A stretch of 39,345 nt of DNA, taken from positions 1-39,345 of the forward strand of contig MWBL01000014.1 in assembly GCA_002069015.1 (NCBI GenBank), written 5' to 3'. The position numbers were made by a program, and so were the translations under genes. The notes beneath the pieces were generated by a model. It did not search any database. It saw only the letters and a list, made by a program, of their open reading frames with translations, and was not told the origin of the DNA. Position 1 is the first letter of the stretch. Each line of letters opens with the position of its first letter. Shown here in pieces: positions 2 to 13,373 of the stretch. Origin of the DNA: Firmicutes bacterium ADurb.Bin300 (GTDB lineage: Bacteria; Bacillota; Clostridia; Oscillospirales; Acutalibacteraceae).

Positions 2-217
2 AAGGGATTTATAAGGACTATTCCGCTTTTACAGTACAGCAAGACGCGCCCCGAGGATTTAGACACGGACGGAGAAGACCATATAGCAGACGAAGTAAGA
101 TATATGTGTATGGCAAGACCGATTTCTCCGAAGCAAAAGGCAAGCGCGGCGGAGATACAGGATGACCCGCTCGAGCTTTGTAAAGGAAAATTCAAAAAAT
201 ACTCATATTGGAAGTGA
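2..217 (+). CDS. Phage terminase large subunit, C-terminal fragment
   Basis: Open from the left edge in the frame starting at base 2 and ending at the TGA of 215-217, giving about 71 residues. The readable tail includes DLDTDGEDHIADEVRYMCM, the kind of ending common in terminase large subunits of Clostridia phages, where the nuclease domain closes with an Asp-rich DHxxDExRY stretch. The enzyme would be the ATP-driven motor and nuclease that packages DNA into the prohead. It is followed directly by the portal gene, as expected. The 5' part lies outside the window, so the ATPase motifs cannot be checked. The call rests on the tail motif plus position. Confidence 0.8.
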   Translation, partial: KGFIRTIPLLQYSKTRPEDLDTDGEDHIADEVRYMCMARPISPKQKASAAEIQDDPLELCKGKFKKYSYWK

Positions 218-1877
218 TGCATTGAAGGATAAAATTAAAAAACCCGACCTCCCGAAAATAGGAAAAAAAGAAATCGACAATGCCCTGCAAACCCTTACTC
301 GCTACAGGGCAGGAAAGGTAAATCTCGAAAGACGTATCATTGAAAACGAGCAGTGGTTTAAGCTGCGTCACTGGGAACAAATGAGGGTTAATCAAGACGA
401 GGCAGAGCCTGCCTCTGCATGGCTTTTCAATTCCATAGCGAATAAGCATGCGGATGCGATGGACAACTATCCCCAAGTCATTTGCCTGCCCAGAGAAAAA
501 AGCGACAGCGACAGCGCCGATTCCCTTTCTCAAATTCTTCCCGTGATTTTTGACAGGAATGAGTTTGAAAGAGTGTATTCAGACGCGTGGTGGCAGAAGC
601 TCAAGGCGGGAACGGCTTGTTACGGAGCTTTTTGGAACCCTCGTTTAAGCGGCGGCGTGGGAGATATCGAAATCAGGCAGATAGATATTCTCAATCTGTT
701 TTGGGAAAGCGGAGTCAAGAATATTGAAAACAGCCGAAACCTGTTCCATACGGAGCTTTTTGATAATGATTATCTCATTTCTCTTTATCCCGAGCTTGAC
801 GGAAAGCTCTCAACCCCGACGGTGGAGGTATCAAGATACATATACGATGACGCTGTTGACACGAGCGAAAAAAGTGTGGTTATTGATTGGTATTATAAGA
901 TTAGTCAGAGTAAGGGCGATGTTTTGCATTACTGCAAATTCTGCAACGGCGTTGTTTTATATGCCTCTGAAAATGATGAGAGCTGCAAAGATACAGGCTT
1001 TTATTCGCACGGTTGTTATCCGTTTGTTTTAGACCCTTTATTTATTGAGGAGGGCACGCCGTGCGGCTTCGGATACATAGACATAATGAAAAACACGCAA
1101 AAGCAAATTGACCTATTAGGCAGCGCGATTATTAACAACGCAAAAATGGCTTCCGCTGTAAGGTATTTCATCAATTCGGCGGGAAGCGTGAATGAAGAGG
1201 AGTTTGCCGATTGGCAAAGCAGCTTTGTTCATGTACAAGGCAGCAATTTGGGTGAAGACAGTCTCAGACAAATCAGAATTGCCCCGATCTCTGAAATTTA
1301 TATTGCAATATTGAACAATAAAATTGATGAGCTTAAGGAAACGAGCGGGAACCGTGATTTTTCACAGGGCTCAGCTTCCGGCGGTGTAACGGCCGCGAGC
1401 GCTATTGCAGCGCTGCAGGAGGCGGGAAATAAGCTTACAAGAGATATGATTAAGGGCGGCTACCGAGCATTTACGAAGCTAAACGAGCTTTGCATTGAGC
1501 TTATAAGGCAGTTTTATGATGAACCCAGATGCTTCAGAATTACGGGCGTTGGGGGGGAAAGAGACTATATTACATATGATAATTCACTCTTAAAGCCAAA
1601 AAATCAAGGTAATGCATTCGGAATTACGCTTGGTAACAGACTCCCGATATTTGACATAAAGGTAAGCTCACAAAAGGCAAGTCCGTTTACAAAGCTCAGT
1701 CAAAACGAGCTTGCCCTCCAGCTTTATACAAACGGTATGTTTAATCCTATGATGAAGCAGCAGGCGCTTGCCGCTATAGAAATGATGGATTTCGAGGGAA
1801 AAGCACAGGTCCTTGCAAGAATTGCCTCGCAGGACACGCAAGGGGGTGAATCATACGATGACAAAGGTATCGGTTGA
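162..1877 (+). CDS. Phage portal protein
   Basis: 571 residues. Portal proteins form the dodecameric ring at the capsid vertex through which DNA enters and leaves. The protein shows the layout seen in P22-like and related portals of Firmicutes phages: a charged N-terminus, an early segment around residues 75-110 (SAWLFNSIANKHADAMDNYP), and a long helical region near residues 320-450 with NNKIDELKETSGNRDFSQG followed by an Ala-rich AASAIAALQEAG helix. The ATG at 162 has GGAG at 151-154 with 7-base spacing and overlaps the terminase by 56 bases. A TTG at 222, four bases after the terminase stop with GGAAG upstream, is an alternative start. The last 20 bases overlap the protease gene. The assignment to the portal superfamily is confident; the exact subfamily is not. 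Confidence 0.88.
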   Translation: MTRSSFVKENSKNTHIGSDALKDKIKKPDLPKIGKKEIDNALQTLTRYRAGKVNLERRIIENEQWFKLRHWEQMRVNQDEAEPASAWLFNSIANKHADAMDNYPQVICLPREKSDSDSADSLSQILPVIFDRNEFERVYSDAWWQKLKAGTACYGAFWNPRLSGGVGDIEIRQIDILNLFWESGVKNIENSRNLFHTELFDNDYLISLYPELDGKLSTPTVEVSRYIYDDAVDTSEKSVVIDWYYKISQSKGDVLHYCKFCNGVVLYASENDESCKDTGFYSHGCYPFVLDPLFIEEGTPCGFGYIDIMKNTQKQIDLLGSAIINNAKMASAVRYFINSAGSVNEEEFADWQSSFVHVQGSNLGEDSLRQIRIAPISEIYIAILNNKIDELKETSGNRDFSQGSASGGVTAASAIAALQEAGNKLTRDMIKGGYRAFTKLNELCIELIRQFYDEPRCFRITGVGGERDYITYDNSLLKPKNQGNAFGITLGNRLPIFDIKVSSQKASPFTKLSQNELALQLYTNGMFNPMMKQQALAAIEMMDFEGKAQVLARIASQDTQGGESYDDKGIG

Positions 1878-2181
1878 AGAGTTTTACGATAATTATATCA
1901 TTTCTATCGAAGGTCATGCGGGTTTTGCCCAACGGGGAAGCGATATTGTTTGCGCCGCAATCTCAACGATTACATATACTCTGCTCAACGCTATCAGGTG
2001 GGCGCAGGACGGGGATTGCCTCTATATAAGGACTGAAAATATTTCAGACGGCAATATCTATCTTGAGGTAGAGCCTTACGATTTCGCCAAAGAAAAGGTT
2101 GACACAATAATCGAAACTTGTTTAACCGGGTTTTCTCTCATTGAAGAGGAATACCCCGATTATATAAGAGTAAGCGGTTAG
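1858..2181 (+). CDS. prp: Phage-encoded Prp-type cysteine protease (DUF464/YsxB family), probable prohead protease
   Basis: 107 residues. The diagnostic Prp motif is present at residues 19-36: GHAGFAQRGSDIVCAAIS, holding the catalytic His of GHA and the catalytic Cys of IVCAA. Host Prp in Staphylococcus aureus removes the N-terminal extension of ribosomal protein L27, and phage 80alpha capsid and scaffold carry the same cleavage motif. Here the gene lies between portal and scaffold, the usual place for a prohead protease. The start at 1858 was chosen because AGGGGGTG (1841-1848) precedes it; an upstream in-frame ATG at 1813 lies inside the portal gene without a good site. The acidic C-terminal half resembles other family members. 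The family call is very sure; a capsid-maturation role is inferred from context and from motifs in the next two structural genes. Confidence 0.9.
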   Translation: MTKVSVEEFYDNYIISIEGHAGFAQRGSDIVCAAISTITYTLLNAIRWAQDGDCLYIRTENISDGNIYLEVEPYDFAKEKVDTIIETCLTGFSLIEEEYPDYIRVSG

Positions 2182-2228
2182 TCCGCGAATGACACGCCGG
2201 AAAGACGGCTGAAGAAAGGATGTATTTT

Positions 2229-3008
2229 ATGAGAAGCAATTGGTTCAGGCTCAGACTCAACGCGTTTGGCGGCGAAGGGGGAGAGTTTGGCGAACAGGGG
2301 AACGTAAAAACGGGCGACGAAGGAAATAACGAAAGGGCAGACGCCGTGCAAACAGAAGATACTGCGTTTTCCGAGGAGCTCAGCCGTGAGCAAAGGTTTT
2401 CAAAGCTTGTAGGCGGGGAGTTTAAGGACGAGTTCGCAAAAAAGATGCAAAGCATAATTGATAAACGCTTCAAGGAAACGAAAAAGCTTGAGGGAGAAAG
2501 AGAGCTGCTTTCGCCTATACTACAGGATTTATTTGAGCAGCACAATGTTCAGCAGGGCGATCTTTCGGCACTTTCTGAGGCTGTCAGCTTAAGCAGACAA
2601 CAGCGGGAAAGTGAAGAACAACGCGCAGCGGACAAGGCGAAAGAACAGGTAGCCGAATGGATAAAAGAGGGTCAGCAGCTAAAAATCGTTTATCCCTCAT
2701 TCGATTTTCGCAGTGAGCTTAAGGACGATAAAGGCTTTGCAAATCTGATTAAGGCGGGTATACCCGTCAGGACCGCGTATGAGGTGTTGCACAAGGACGA
2801 AATCTTAGGCGGCGCAATGGAATATACGGCAAAAAAGGTCAGCGAGCACGTTGTAAAGGGAATTGAGGCAAAGGCGAGTCGCCCACAGGAGAACGGAATA
2901 GGAACAAAGGGCGGAATAATCAGGAAAACAGATGTAAACTCCCTTACCTCACAGGATATAACAGATATCCTGAAACAAGTTGAAAGGGGCGCAAGCATAA
3001 GCTTTTAG
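2229..3008 (+). CDS. Phage capsid scaffolding protein
   Basis: 259 residues, highly charged and mostly predicted helical (Glu/Lys/Gln-rich), with a low-complexity Gly/Glu N-terminus and coiled-coil-like stretches around residues 75-160. Scaffolds of this kind direct capsid assembly and are removed before or during packaging. The N-terminus contains WFRLRLNAFGGEGGE, where LRLNAFGG resembles the Prp cleavage consensus (L-N-L-Q-F-F-A) in a weaker form. The ATG at 2229 is preferred because AAAGGA lies about 9 bases upstream; the in-frame ATG at 2220 directly abuts that site. Position between protease and major capsid protein supports the role. No sequence motif proves it, so it rests on composition and synteny. 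Confidence 0.78.
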   Translation: MRSNWFRLRLNAFGGEGGEFGEQGNVKTGDEGNNERADAVQTEDTAFSEELSREQRFSKLVGGEFKDEFAKKMQSIIDKRFKETKKLEGERELLSPILQDLFEQHNVQQGDLSALSEAVSLSRQQRESEEQRAADKAKEQVAEWIKEGQQLKIVYPSFDFRSELKDDKGFANLIKAGIPVRTAYEVLHKDEILGGAMEYTAKKVSEHVVKGIEAKASRPQENGIGTKGGIIRKTDVNSLTSQDITDILKQVERGASISF

Positions 3009-3040
3009 CGCTTTGACTAAATCAAAGAAAGGATTATTTT

Positions 3041-4315
3041 ATGAATTTACAGTTTTTTGCGGCAGGAGATCTTGTAAACAATACGGCAAGCGAGTCTTTT
3101 GGGAATAACTTGTCCCCGGAAATGAAGACATTTTATGATAAAACGCTCATAACACTTGCCTCCCCTTATCTTGTGCACGACCAGTTCGGGCAAAAGAGGG
3201 ACATTCCGAAGGGCGGCGGAAAGGAGATAGAATTCAGAAGGTTTTCGTCTCTTCCCAAGGCTTTGACACCGCTTATGGAGGGCATAACCCCTACGGGCAA
3301 TAAGCTTAACGTATCAAGCGCTACCGCTTCGTTAGATCAGTACGGAGATTATATTGAACAAACCGATTTACTTGAGCTTACCTCAATAGATAACACTATT
3401 GTCGAGGCAACAAAACAGCTTGCGGCTCAGGCAGGCTTGACTTTGGACACGATAGTGCGCAACGAGATTGTAGGCGGAACAAACGTACAGTATTGTCCGC
3501 GCATCTCGGGAGGGGTTGAATCGGCTGTCAACTTAAGAAGTCAGCTTGACGCTACGGCTCTTTTGAGAGTTAAGGACATATTCAAGGCAGCGGCGGAGCT
3601 TAAGGCTATGAACGCCCCGAAGATAGACGGCTACTACATCGGGATAATTCATCCTTATGTGGCTTACGATTTAATGCAGGAGGCGGGAGCTCAGTGGCTT
3701 GATGTTCAAAAATACACGACTCCCGAAAATATGCTAACGGGCGAAATAGGCTGCCTTGGCGGCGTTCGCTTTGTGGAGTCAACGGAAGCGAAGATATTTA
3801 AGGGGGCAGACCTCATTGCAGGCAGTGATACAGTAACAGTTGCCGCAACTTTATCGGCACCGGGGAAAACCTTAACGGTTGACGAGACAATTACCGCGAC
3901 AGAAGCGACAGCTCTTGTCGGGAGAAAAATTCTTCTTGAGGGTGTCACCTATACGATAAAATCCGCCACGGCAGGAACAGGCGGTGCAGCTTCCATAACC
4001 GTTGCTGACAGCGACGACAATATTCCCGTTTCTTCGGGAACAGACGGAAAGGTTATTTATGCCGCGGGTGCGGGAGCTGCAAACTGTGCGGTATTCGCAA
4101 CTTTGATACTAGGCGCCGATGCTTACGGAGTTACCTCTGTAAACGGCGGCGGTGTCGAGCACATCGTAAAACAAAAGGGCTACGGAAATGACCCACTCAA
4201 TCAGAGAAGCTCAATAGGCTGGAAGGCTCTTAAGGTAGCAAAAAGGCTTGTAGAGGAATATATGATCAGGCTTGAAAGCGGATCGACTTTCTCAGCTACG
4301 GCTAAGGCTAACTGA
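3041..4315 (+). CDS. Major capsid protein, N4-gp56 family
   Basis: 424 residues. Residues about 80-135 match the N4-gp56 capsid family style: LMEGITPTGNKLNVSSATAS, then QYGDYIEQTDLLELTSID and AGLTLDTIVRNEIVGGT. This protein forms the HK97-fold shell. It starts MNLQFFAAGD, an exact copy of the core of the Prp cleavage motif known from Firmicutes L27, so it is a likely substrate of the neighbouring protease. Around residues 260-345 there is a Thr/Ala/Gly-rich segment (for example DTVTVAATLSAPGKTLTVDE) that looks like an inserted beta-domain in the shell fold. The ribosome binding site AAGAAAGGA precedes the start. Family assignment is strong; processing is inferred. Confidence 0.9.
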   Translation: MNLQFFAAGDLVNNTASESFGNNLSPEMKTFYDKTLITLASPYLVHDQFGQKRDIPKGGGKEIEFRRFSSLPKALTPLMEGITPTGNKLNVSSATASLDQYGDYIEQTDLLELTSIDNTIVEATKQLAAQAGLTLDTIVRNEIVGGTNVQYCPRISGGVESAVNLRSQLDATALLRVKDIFKAAAELKAMNAPKIDGYYIGIIHPYVAYDLMQEAGAQWLDVQKYTTPENMLTGEIGCLGGVRFVESTEAKIFKGADLIAGSDTVTVAATLSAPGKTLTVDETITATEATALVGRKILLEGVTYTIKSATAGTGGAASITVADSDDNIPVSSGTDGKVIYAAGAGAANCAVFATLILGADAYGVTSVNGGGVEHIVKQKGYGNDPLNQRSSIGWKALKVAKRLVEEYMIRLESGSTFSATAKAN

Positions 4316-6802: not shown

Positions 6803-7722
6803 TGGACGGCGATATACGCGGATATCTCAGTCAGCTTGACGATACGCTTAAAACCGTACTTGAGAGCCTTTCGGGAAATGTCTTAGGGGTAAAGAGTGTT
6901 TTAACTCAAAACGGCTCTGCGGAGGAGGAAACGAATAAAAATATATATTCTATAGCCGTTAAGCTTAAGCAGGAGCAGCTTCAGAAATTTGATGAACTGA
7001 AAAGCGATATTATAAGGACTGCCGATGAGGTTACGCAGGGATGTAAGGCTTATACCGACGAGCGTGAAAACTCAGTTATCGCCGCTGTTGAAAGCGGTTA
7101 TACGGCAAAGGGCGAATTTGGGGAATACACAAGCGCGGTAAATGGCACTCTTGGCGTTTATGACGGAAGAATAAGCGCAAATACACAGGCGATTGAATTA
7201 ATTGATTCTGATTATCAAGAGTATAAAAGAACCTCGTCGTCTGACATTTCTTTAATGCCTTCGGCTATTATTTCCGAAGTATCAGAGTCTTTTATATCAA
7301 AAAACGAGTTAGGGGGGGAAACCTTTGACTCATTTATAGGTTCAAAGGTAACCCAAAGCGCAAGCGGGATAACGGAGGAGTTCAGAGCTGTATTAGAGGG
7401 GATTTCAGATACAATAGGCGAAACGGGCGACAATTTTTCCGAGTACATTCTTGAAACGAACGCATATATCCGGCGCGGTGAGCTTGAAGAGGGCGTCTTT
7501 GGTCTTGAAATAGGCAGGGGCGACAGCAATGTTAAAACACGATTTTTAAACGACAAAATATCCTTTTATCAAGGCGAGGTTGAGGTTGCGTACATTTCGA
7601 ATAACTCCCTGTATATAACGAGGGCACAGGTTCTCGACTGTTTGGAAATAGGCAACAGCGTTGACGGATACTTTACATTTGACGTATCGCAAAACGGACT
7701 TGAGGTGAGGTGGAATCAATGA
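6802..7722 (+). CDS. Phage tail/baseplate-type structural protein
   Basis: 306 residues. The N-terminal two thirds are helical and Ser/Glu-rich with heptad-like spacing, suggesting a trimeric coiled-coil stalk. The last 80 residues (RFLNDKISFYQGEVEVAYIS, then YITRAQVLDCLEIG) match a small beta-domain often found at the C-terminus of minor tail proteins in Firmicutes phages. The ATG at 6802 shares a base with the preceding TGA and has GGAAGGGAG upstream; an alternative TTG sits one codon earlier. The 3' end overlaps the next gene by 4 bases (ATGA), implying coupled translation. It probably forms part of the fibre or spike attachment. Confidence 0.62.
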   Translation: MDGDIRGYLSQLDDTLKTVLESLSGNVLGVKSVLTQNGSAEEETNKNIYSIAVKLKQEQLQKFDELKSDIIRTADEVTQGCKAYTDERENSVIAAVESGYTAKGEFGEYTSAVNGTLGVYDGRISANTQAIELIDSDYQEYKRTSSSDISLMPSAIISEVSESFISKNELGGETFDSFIGSKVTQSASGITEEFRAVLEGISDTIGETGDNFSEYILETNAYIRRGELEEGVFGLEIGRGDSNVKTRFLNDKISFYQGEVEVAYISNNSLYITRAQVLDCLEIGNSVDGYFTFDVSQNGLEVRWNQ

Positions 7723-13372: not shown

Positions 13373-13373
13373 G

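Follow-up and report, generated by a model that had tools for sequence, protein, structure and literature searches.

The cutting of phage shell proteins by enzymes of the Prp kind is already known in two forms, by the host Prp in phage 80alpha and by a clan-CR capsid protease of the phage's own in Cp-1. The capsid and scaffold proteins of 80alpha each carry an L27-like N-terminal site, which the host Prp cuts between Phe and Ala (PMC5744158, PMC9405229; cuts are marked below by a slash). Passages of PMC5744158 describe 80alpha as viable without cleavage of capsid or scaffold, the scaffold N-terminal sequence as essential though its cutting is not, and the purpose of tag and cutting on the shell proteins as unclear; a common chaperone is proposed there. 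Because this cleavage is dispensable, the purpose of "capsid maturation" is uncertain and selection for cutting cannot be taken for granted. The Streptococcus phage Cp-1 (Salasmaviridae) is described in a passage of PMC12445089 as encoding a protease, of MEROPS clan CR like Prp, that trims the major head protein by its 48 N-terminal residues. We read its orf13 as the probable protease: comparison with a Prp profile gave a probability of 94.8 (E 5e-8 for one comparison), and its Pfam Prp score of 18.5 bits lies below the cut-off. A literature search over titles and the starts of abstracts, with few subscription papers, returned nothing on a phage-encoded Prp accompanied by L27-like tags.

The window, by which we mean the whole 39,345-nucleotide stretch analysed, carries a head module in the order P22-like portal, Prp, scaffold and capsid (Table 1), with the 3' end of the portal gene and the start of the protease gene sharing 20 bases. 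Genes resembling those of polymerase I, RNA polymerase and elongation factors occur from about 13374 onward, where the window looks like host chromosome; the phage region is therefore a prophage cut by the left end of the contig. The host of the prophage is a gut bacterium. No Pfam or PHROG match to a herpesvirus-like or ClpP-like prohead protease was obtained among the seven head-region proteins scanned.

Table 1 Features of the head module in the window
Feature	Position	Strand	Evidence
Portal protein, P22-like	162..1877	+	PF16510 3.1e-27, PHROG 156
Phage-encoded Prp cysteine protease (predicted), 107 aa	1858..2181	+	PF04327 8.3e-20
Active-site loop GHAGFAQRGSDIVC, His-to-Cys distance 12	1912..1953	+	sequence
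Scaffold-like protein, 259 aa	2229..3008	+	PHROG 13908 2.4e-51 (no function assigned there); location between the protease and capsid genes
Predicted site LRLNAF/G in scaffold, between residues 13 and 14	2250..2270	+	sequence
Major capsid protein	3041..4315	+	PHROG 1357 (major head protein) 7.8e-77
Predicted site MNLQFF/A, capsid N-terminal end, between residues 6 and 7	3041..3061	+	sequence

The protease gene had been assigned to Prp by its catalytic signature, and both the open reading frame, which carries GHAGFAQRGSDIVCAAIS, and the Pfam match bear this out. Its product scored 71.3 bits against Pfam Peptidase_Prp (curated cut-off 27) and matched PHROG 4478, "peptidase". The residues of the family are present: a dyad of His20 and Cys32, a flexible loop flanked by glycines, an aspartate and a helix serine, with Gly19, Gly27, Asp29 and Ser36 standing where S. 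aureus has Gly21, Gly29, Asp31 and Ser38 (roles of dyad and loop residues as given in section 3.4 of PMC9405229). G19, H20 and C32 were without variation across 29 aligned sequences. In an AlphaFold2 model (pLDDT 94.4) the predicted order of elements is that of the Prp fold, and a structure search of the PDB returned Prps as the best matches, including 7jvs and 7kld. Apart from 7jvs, the 14 matches with E <= 0.001 were entries for S. mutans, S. pneumoniae, S. aureus and T. maritima that a part of the review PMC9405229 names as Prps. The dN/dS of the protease was also computed; since synonymous sites were mostly saturated, it gives weak support. As judged from its sequence, the product is an intact Prp-family cysteine protease of predicted activity. 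It shares family, dyad, loop residues and predicted fold with ribosomal Prp (YsxB, C108) but differs in setting and descent: portal and scaffold genes are its neighbours, not rplU and rpmA, and in the tree it falls in a separate lineage.

The capsid open reading frame starts MNLQFFAAGD, as the sequence-only reading had it, and has no in-frame start upstream. For the scaffold the ORF tool gave a start at 2220, an ATG that abuts AAAGG, its would-be ribosome-binding site; we prefer 2229, whose spacing from the ribosome-binding site equals that of the capsid gene. From this start the N-terminus reads MRSNWFRLRLNAFGG, beginning MRSNWFRLRLNAF/GG. The site is beyond chance expectation: examination of 14 phage genes in the window gave a site within the first 40 residues for capsid and scaffold only. 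The window phage thus resembles 80alpha in the L27-like N-terminal sites of both proteins; 80alpha, however, has no protease of its own, whereas the window phage carries a Prp, with sites unlike those of the host L27. With Cp-1 it shares a phage-encoded Prp relative, a homology that is supported; for the window enzyme, cutting of the capsid N-terminus is a prediction. The Cp-1 enzyme is very divergent, and the Cp-1 site, INH/ATV by our own translation, shows no L27-like tag, unlike the window phage.

A search of the host genome for its own prp and the L27 N-terminus, proposed with the sequence-only reading, found both as neighbours on contig C17, with L21, recognised by eye, on the other flank, so that this gene occupies the rplU/rpmA position. 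The host prp is an intact open reading frame, and its product has Asn at the place of S. aureus Asp31. Decay of this enzyme was considered and is unsupported, two genus mates being 40-45% identical to the host Prp and 50% to each other. The host L27 is of the long form with the site INIQLF/A (the L27 search patterns demand Ala at P1', so that its constant presence there is no finding). Agreement with this site was 4/7 for the phage capsid and 1/7 for the scaffold, which fits a separate specificity. The tree separates phage from host Prps as two weakly resolved lineages. The claim that the phage carries its own copy holds insofar as a Prp of its own lies in the head module; that it is a copy of the host enzyme is not supported.

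Relatives were collected by capsid searches, which did yield them; when viral contigs were scanned with only the protease or only the scaffold as query, no relative could be confirmed. Their counts are uncorrected for kinship, the nearest-relative control described below excepted. A Prp open reading frame was present at 49 of 80 viral loci retrieved by capsid, many of the remaining loci being incomplete. Six of 14 records chosen for having no clear nearby Prp have one beyond the retrieved flank, behind a portal in the one re-examined. A second sample gave a Prp in 37 of the 51 new N-termini having at least 2.5 kb upstream (38 of 64 rows). Across 200 family genomes, at least two Prp hits occurred in 14 of the 21 with this capsid versus 2 of 179 others (capsid only, 7; neither, 177; Fisher 1e-14). 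Prp-bearing head modules of other arrangement are also tagged, namely in Lactococcus TP712, Latilactobacillus, Dorea and a gut phage. Open reading frames at the place of the protease were compared with the Prp alignment in L136 (probability 56), L142 (54) and L053 (5), and none was counted as Prp; a neighbouring window gene, used as the control, gave no match. Behind the portal of L315 lies a 103-codon open frame with likeness to Prp along its whole length (best E 7.5e-20), which scores just below the Prp cut of the second sample and lacks the GH, the Cys and an ATG. Its being open and Prp-like to the end speaks against a broken remnant.

Capsid and scaffold sites are usual in these relatives. 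A strict site pattern was found in 73 of the 86 N-termini for the capsid and 63 of the 78 for the scaffold, versus 8 of 319 other ribosome-site-led open reading frames, positions having been chosen by a scoring rule on the 86 capsid N-termini and the L041 capsid site re-read by hand. The sequence-only reading had given both window proteins Prp-type sites, and this comparison upholds it; the weaker look of the scaffold site is explained by the variation of sites within the family. Identity between capsid and scaffold exceeded that of shuffled pairs at P6, P5, P4, P3, P2 and P1' (0-14 of 5000) and did not at P7, P2', P3' and the near-invariant P1 (66 pairs, 44 unique; L136 left out, as were rows lacking the complete ten-residue window). 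The likeness at P6-P1' goes beyond the nearest-relative control, in which a phage's own scaffold matched its capsid site better than did the nearest relative's in 29 cases, equally in 18 and worse in 11 (p=0.006; 66 phages, 58 after 92% clustering; L136, L200 and L225 left out). The same test on the flanks of the sites gave p=0.61.

For a link between the active-site loop and P1' the evidence is no more than suggestive. In the comparison of loop length with acidic P1', a His-to-Cys distance other than 12 occurred in 12/12 versus 4/40, covering 52 of 54 Prp-bearing rows (L214, whose loop was not parsed, and L037, which has no capsid site, left out; the L122 loop set by hand). The enzymes of L072 and L043, for example, have the short loop NPGND together with Asp at P1' of their sites. 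On the best tree the link comes down to five changes, two of them supported (p=0.5). In the second sample, where six loops were unparsed (L336, L347, L351, L371, L372, L392), the scaffold P1' is acidic in two rows, of which L353 looks wrongly picked; the other, L322, looks correctly picked and combines Asp with an ordinary loop, contrary to the link. As proof of coupling the association was therefore downgraded.

Phages were next divided into Prp-bearing and Prp-less, that is, without an active Prp of their own, a status assigned by the author ahead of counting. The better of the capsid and scaffold sites agreed with the host L27 at 6/7 or more in all six site-keeping Prp-less phages versus 5 of 47 Prp-bearing ones (Fisher 2e-5; 5/46 without L324, whose L27 was misread). 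The five exceptions are L013, L197, L317, L360 and L369, three of them NIQLF/A relatives; in the other 42 the best site reached at most 5/7. Ten Prp-less phages were compared, the site being kept in six, perhaps from three or four lineages, and absent in four (L213, L225, L226, L388); genomes in this set can be incomplete (G040, 72%), and that of L388 has a second Prp hit, below cut-off. None of the six matches the host L27 perfectly in its second protein as well: L359 and L361 reach 6/7 in both proteins, the L315 scaffold 4/7, the G122 scaffold has no site, and neither do the capsids of L373 and L376. Chance-looking sites were dropped by hand in L376 (capsid), L386, L388 and L225 and, for the scaffold only, in L200 and L353; the L225 scaffold had no profile identification. 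L386, L390 and L392, whose host L27 did not parse, were dropped from the comparison, and L218 and L215, of "unclear" status, stand outside the count. Tags are also kept in some phages without a detected Prp for which there is no host L27 to compare, such as L029 and L220.

We think it very probable, from these sequence comparisons, that a phage-dedicated Prp of the head module cuts the capsid and scaffold tags, whose sites have drifted from the host type. Comparison supports the family, intact active site and predicted fold of the enzyme, its linkage with this capsid, the enrichment and capsid-scaffold coupling of the tags, and host-like tags where Prp is missing; cleavage, its timing and its benefit we infer. 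Prp would be made together with the scaffold and capsid proteins and act in trans, cutting each once after the Phe of its short N-terminal tag (scaffold LNAF/GG, capsid LQFF/AAG), before or during procapsid assembly, like the host Prp in 80alpha. With an enzyme of its own, the phage would be free to carry sites that differ from the host L27; enzyme and tags would drift together, and without an active phage enzyme the tag would become host-L27-like or be missing. That the host Prp does the cutting, the phage enzyme being a copy that is redundant or serves to boost the Prp dose late in infection, could account for the host's own prp and long L27, the Gln-x-Phe/Ala core of MNLQFF/A and the host-like sites kept in some Prp-bearing relatives. 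We consider this unlikely, given the 1/7 agreement of the window scaffold, the best sites of at most 5/7 in 42 of 47 Prp-bearing phages versus 6 or 7 in six Prp-less ones, and phage Prps that look like a separate lineage.

Less probable still is that the phage Prp mainly binds or chaperones nascent scaffold and capsid N-termini, with cutting secondary. The essential but dispensably cut 80alpha scaffold N-terminus and the proposed common chaperone (PMC5744158), a section of the review PMC9405229 headed with Prp as a chaperone, and the L315 frame, Prp-like without the catalytic pair, all speak for such a role; against it, His and Cys are invariant in the 29 aligned sequences, and the capsid-scaffold coupling extends to P1' and not to P2' or P3', as expected of a cut site. 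An enzyme aimed at the host, cutting or hoarding L27 or taking over its processing, is very improbable: the phage Prp is of the same family and loop length as L27-adjacent Prps and the host enzyme has its Asn at the Asp31 place, but the phage gene belongs to the head operon and is retained alongside capsid and scaffold, no observation of ours connects it with L27, and the host prp is an intact reading frame.

On the reading of a dedicated head-module protease, it seems an evenly balanced proposition that co-drifted pairs of Prp and tag with partly private specificities, altered loops and acidic P1' among them, are spread through a large lineage of phages of gut Clostridia. Such phages would shift between self-processing and dependence on the host Prp through loss of the active enzyme, the host L27 tag being kept or regained, or the tag dropped. 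Phages that own the enzyme, seemingly borrow the host's or are tagless form a natural experiment on why shell proteins wear the tag. If the pairs are private, they would be a source of small site-specific proteases. Prp is proposed as an antibiotic target in a part of PMC9405229, and Prp inhibitors could meet phage-borne Prps in lysogens.

Profile matches placed phage genes, all in one direction, from the left end of the contig to ~13372; beyond this, the matches, gene sizes and gene order look like host chromosome rather than phage. The host-side genes from 13374 are, we presume, the str region. As phage genes are thus followed by apparent host chromosome, the window holds a prophage whose left part lies off the contig and whose right end is near 13373. 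The source genome comprises 2.2 Mb in 175 contigs, the window being all of contig C14. The capsid contains an insertion that is absent from two relatives (G071 and G189) that are 82-88% identical on either side.

Features of the window and of two further records
Record	Feature	Position	Basis or remark
window	portal	162-1877	profile match
window	Prp	1858-2181	PF04327
window	scaffold-like protein	2229-3008	
window	capsid	3041-4315	
window	capsid insertion	3803-4072	residues ~255-344
window	genes after capsid	to ~13372	internal virion, tail, endolysin, holin family matches; some without named match
window	putative host chromosome	13374-39345	HAD hydrolase, GtrA/GtrB, DNA polymerase I, RNA polymerase subunit, elongation factor matches
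L002 (G000:C17)	host Prp	1477-1797, minus strand	
L315	Prp-like open frame	2810-3118	103 codons, behind portal

PF04327 covered the window Prp over its full length (71.3 bits against a cut-off of 27), and alignment of 29 sequences revealed Gly19, His20 and Cys32 to be invariant. Its Gly27, Asp29 and Ser36 align with S. aureus Prp Gly29, Asp31 and Ser38, described in PMC9405229 as essential or as a loop hinge. An AlphaFold2 model generated from the 29-sequence alignment displayed the strand-helix order of the Prp family (pLDDT 94.4), with a minimum at residues 21-30, which contain the flexible loop. At E <= 0.001 the model matched 14 PDB structures, Prp entries of S. mutans, S. pneumoniae, S. 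aureus and T. maritima (TM-score, normalised to query length, 0.64-0.74), together with seven viral structure models. Six of the latter are phage proteins titled 'Cysteine protease' or 'YsxB-like', so databases already label phage Prps as what they are; Streptococcus phage SOCP supplies the seventh, an uncharacterized protein.

The sequence-only reading had recognised Prp-type N-terminal motifs on the capsid and scaffold. This was borne out among relatives, where the strict tag pattern was present in 73/86 distinct capsid N-termini and 63/78 scaffolds, against 8/319 other ORFs. A second sample of named genomes, mostly gut Clostridia MAGs (80/90 loci kept, 64 new capsid N-termini), carried the tag in 56/64 capsids and 32/51 scaffolds, some absent scaffold sites perhaps reflecting wrong start picks; Prp was found in 37 of the 51 loci with at least 2.5 kb upstream. 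A tblastn search with the window Prp found 12 of 50,697 phage records. Four were opened, and in each, within a head module of another type, a Prp accompanies a tagged scaffold and capsid, with roles assigned partly by position (slash, putative cut): Lactococcus phage TP712 (scaffold FNLQRF/AEE, capsid FNLQRF/SGD), a Latilactobacillus phage (MKLQLF/ADG, MNLQHF/ADI), Dorea phage DO134P1 (NLQLF/AEG, GLQVF/TAP) and an unannotated gut phage (MLQLF/AEE, MLQLF/AAG). In a gut phage with Prp (L312), a third protein, at 7674, starts MFETGLQLFAEAV; PMC5744158 also places the motif on a phi13 major tail protein.

Using the capsid as query, 145 related viral loci were found and 80 kept. An iterated profile identified a Prp ORF in 49/80, many of the remainder being cut short; it typically lies upstream, between portal and scaffold (downstream in L052). 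When 14 records without a clear nearby Prp were searched whole (including L040, detected by profile only), Pfam revealed Prp beyond the fetched flank in six; L085 was the one opened, and there the gene lies behind a portal. Among 200 host-family genomes, 21 have the capsid, 16 at least two Prp matches and 14 both (Fisher 1e-14); G201 combines three Prps with two capsids. In the two genomes where paired Prp matches occur without the capsid, the pair is apparently a single gene divided over two contigs (G171) or the result of a duplicate contig (G182). The portal-Prp and scaffold-capsid blocks lie on separate contigs (C2, C11) in G115, and ~21 kb apart in G008.

Whether site and enzyme belong together is addressed most directly by phages whose head region lacks a Prp with the catalytic pair, the single clear Prp of the genome lying beside L27 (the L388 genome has a second, weak match). 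Two outcomes were observed: a host-like site in at least one protein, or no tag. The capsid site equals that of host L27 in G122 (VNIQLF/A; scaffold without site) and L315 (LNIQLF/A; scaffold 4/7), as does the scaffold site in L373 (ISLQFF/A; capsid without site). L359 and L361 have LNIQLF/A in both proteins against host INIQLF/A, and L376 has scaffold IGLQFF/A against host ISLQFF/A, its capsid lacking a site. Taking the better of the two proteins, at least 6/7 positions matched host L27 in 6/6 such phages with a site, against 5/47 phages that encode a Prp themselves (Fisher 2e-5; Mann-Whitney 1e-4), p-values that overstate the case because the Prp-less phages form perhaps three or four lineages and their genomes may be incomplete. 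In the window, with its own Prp, the match is 4/7 for the capsid (MNLQFF/A) and 1/7 for the scaffold (LRLNAF/G). No tag was found in capsid or scaffold of G211 and G040, in the capsid of G052 (scaffold not identified), or in G079, where no Prp was found in the whole genome (78% complete); L388 has no capsid tag and only a chance-looking scaffold pattern. The Prp-like frame of L315 has neither catalytic His/Cys nor ATG, and may be either a defunct remnant or a Prp that does not cut.

Within one phage, the capsid site tends to resemble the scaffold site. Across 44 unique pairs, identity exceeded that of shuffles at P6 (.61/.21), P5 (.39/.19), P4 (.84/.71), P3 (.57/.39), P2 (.64/.24) and P1' (.55/.31), with 0-14 of 5000 shuffles; P7, P2' and P3' were at chance level and P1 was nearly invariant. 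Because kinship inflates such resemblance, the scaffold of the nearest relative was swapped in as a control. In 58 phages the own scaffold site was better in 29, equal in 18 and worse in 11 (p=0.006), whilst the flanks gave 9/43/6 (p=0.61), so that coupling is limited to the stretch that a Prp would recognise.

The active-site loop provided a further, suggestive link, to the P1' residue. In all 12 phages with acidic or Asn P1' the His-Cys distance is other than 12, and seven have an [NK]PGxD loop, found in 0 of 40 others; the distance is 12 in 36 of those 40, and in 63 of 67 host Prps beside L27 (11 in one, three unparsed). Such a link makes sense given that in the S. aureus complex described in PMC9405229, P3 Gln contacts loop residues Gly29 and Asp31 and P1' is tight. 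Against it, the capsid tree requires just five changes of P1' type, two on supported branches, in the same direction (p=0.5), and in the second sample acidic P1' was absent from the capsids, with L322 as a counter-example. RLHD is common to capsid and scaffold of L136, and LH replaces the Phe site in both proteins of L053. In Streptococcus phage Cp-1 (L313) the 48-residue cut would fall after His (INH/ATV); a P1 His may accompany loops of very small length.

The host was found to possess its own prp: the source genome has two Prp matches and one L27, and the second Prp sits between L27 (N-terminus MLKINIQLF/AHKK) and L21, the latter recognised by eye. The phage enzyme had been taken for a copy of the host's. 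In a tree built from 53 phage Prps and 67 host Prps, however, the phage/host label required two changes against a shuffled mean of 39.5, albeit with few columns and 9/116 inner branches well supported; the window Prp thus looks unlike a recent duplicate of the host gene. The host Prp has Asn at the place of S. aureus Asp31 (GKNNIIC), where the other 63 host Prps with a parsed loop have Asp; D31A inactivates the S. aureus enzyme (PMC9405229).

According to PMC5744158, host Prp cuts the 80alpha capsid and scaffold between Phe and Ala; cutting of either is dispensable for viability, and the scaffold N-terminal sequence is required. The literature searches listed no phage-encoded Prp paired with L27-like tags, and no pattern of sites drifting from, or agreeing with, that of the host. 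There is nevertheless a precedent for a phage's own Prp relative that acts on a capsid protein, since MEROPS clan CR includes the Cp-1 enzyme, which takes 48 residues off the head protein (PMC12445089), and Cp-1 orf13 matches the Prp profile built here. Possible effects on host L27 are unlikely to be the main role of the window Prp. Comparison across these phages makes it highly probable that the enzyme is dedicated to the phage, with capsid and scaffold as the proteins it is predicted to trim.
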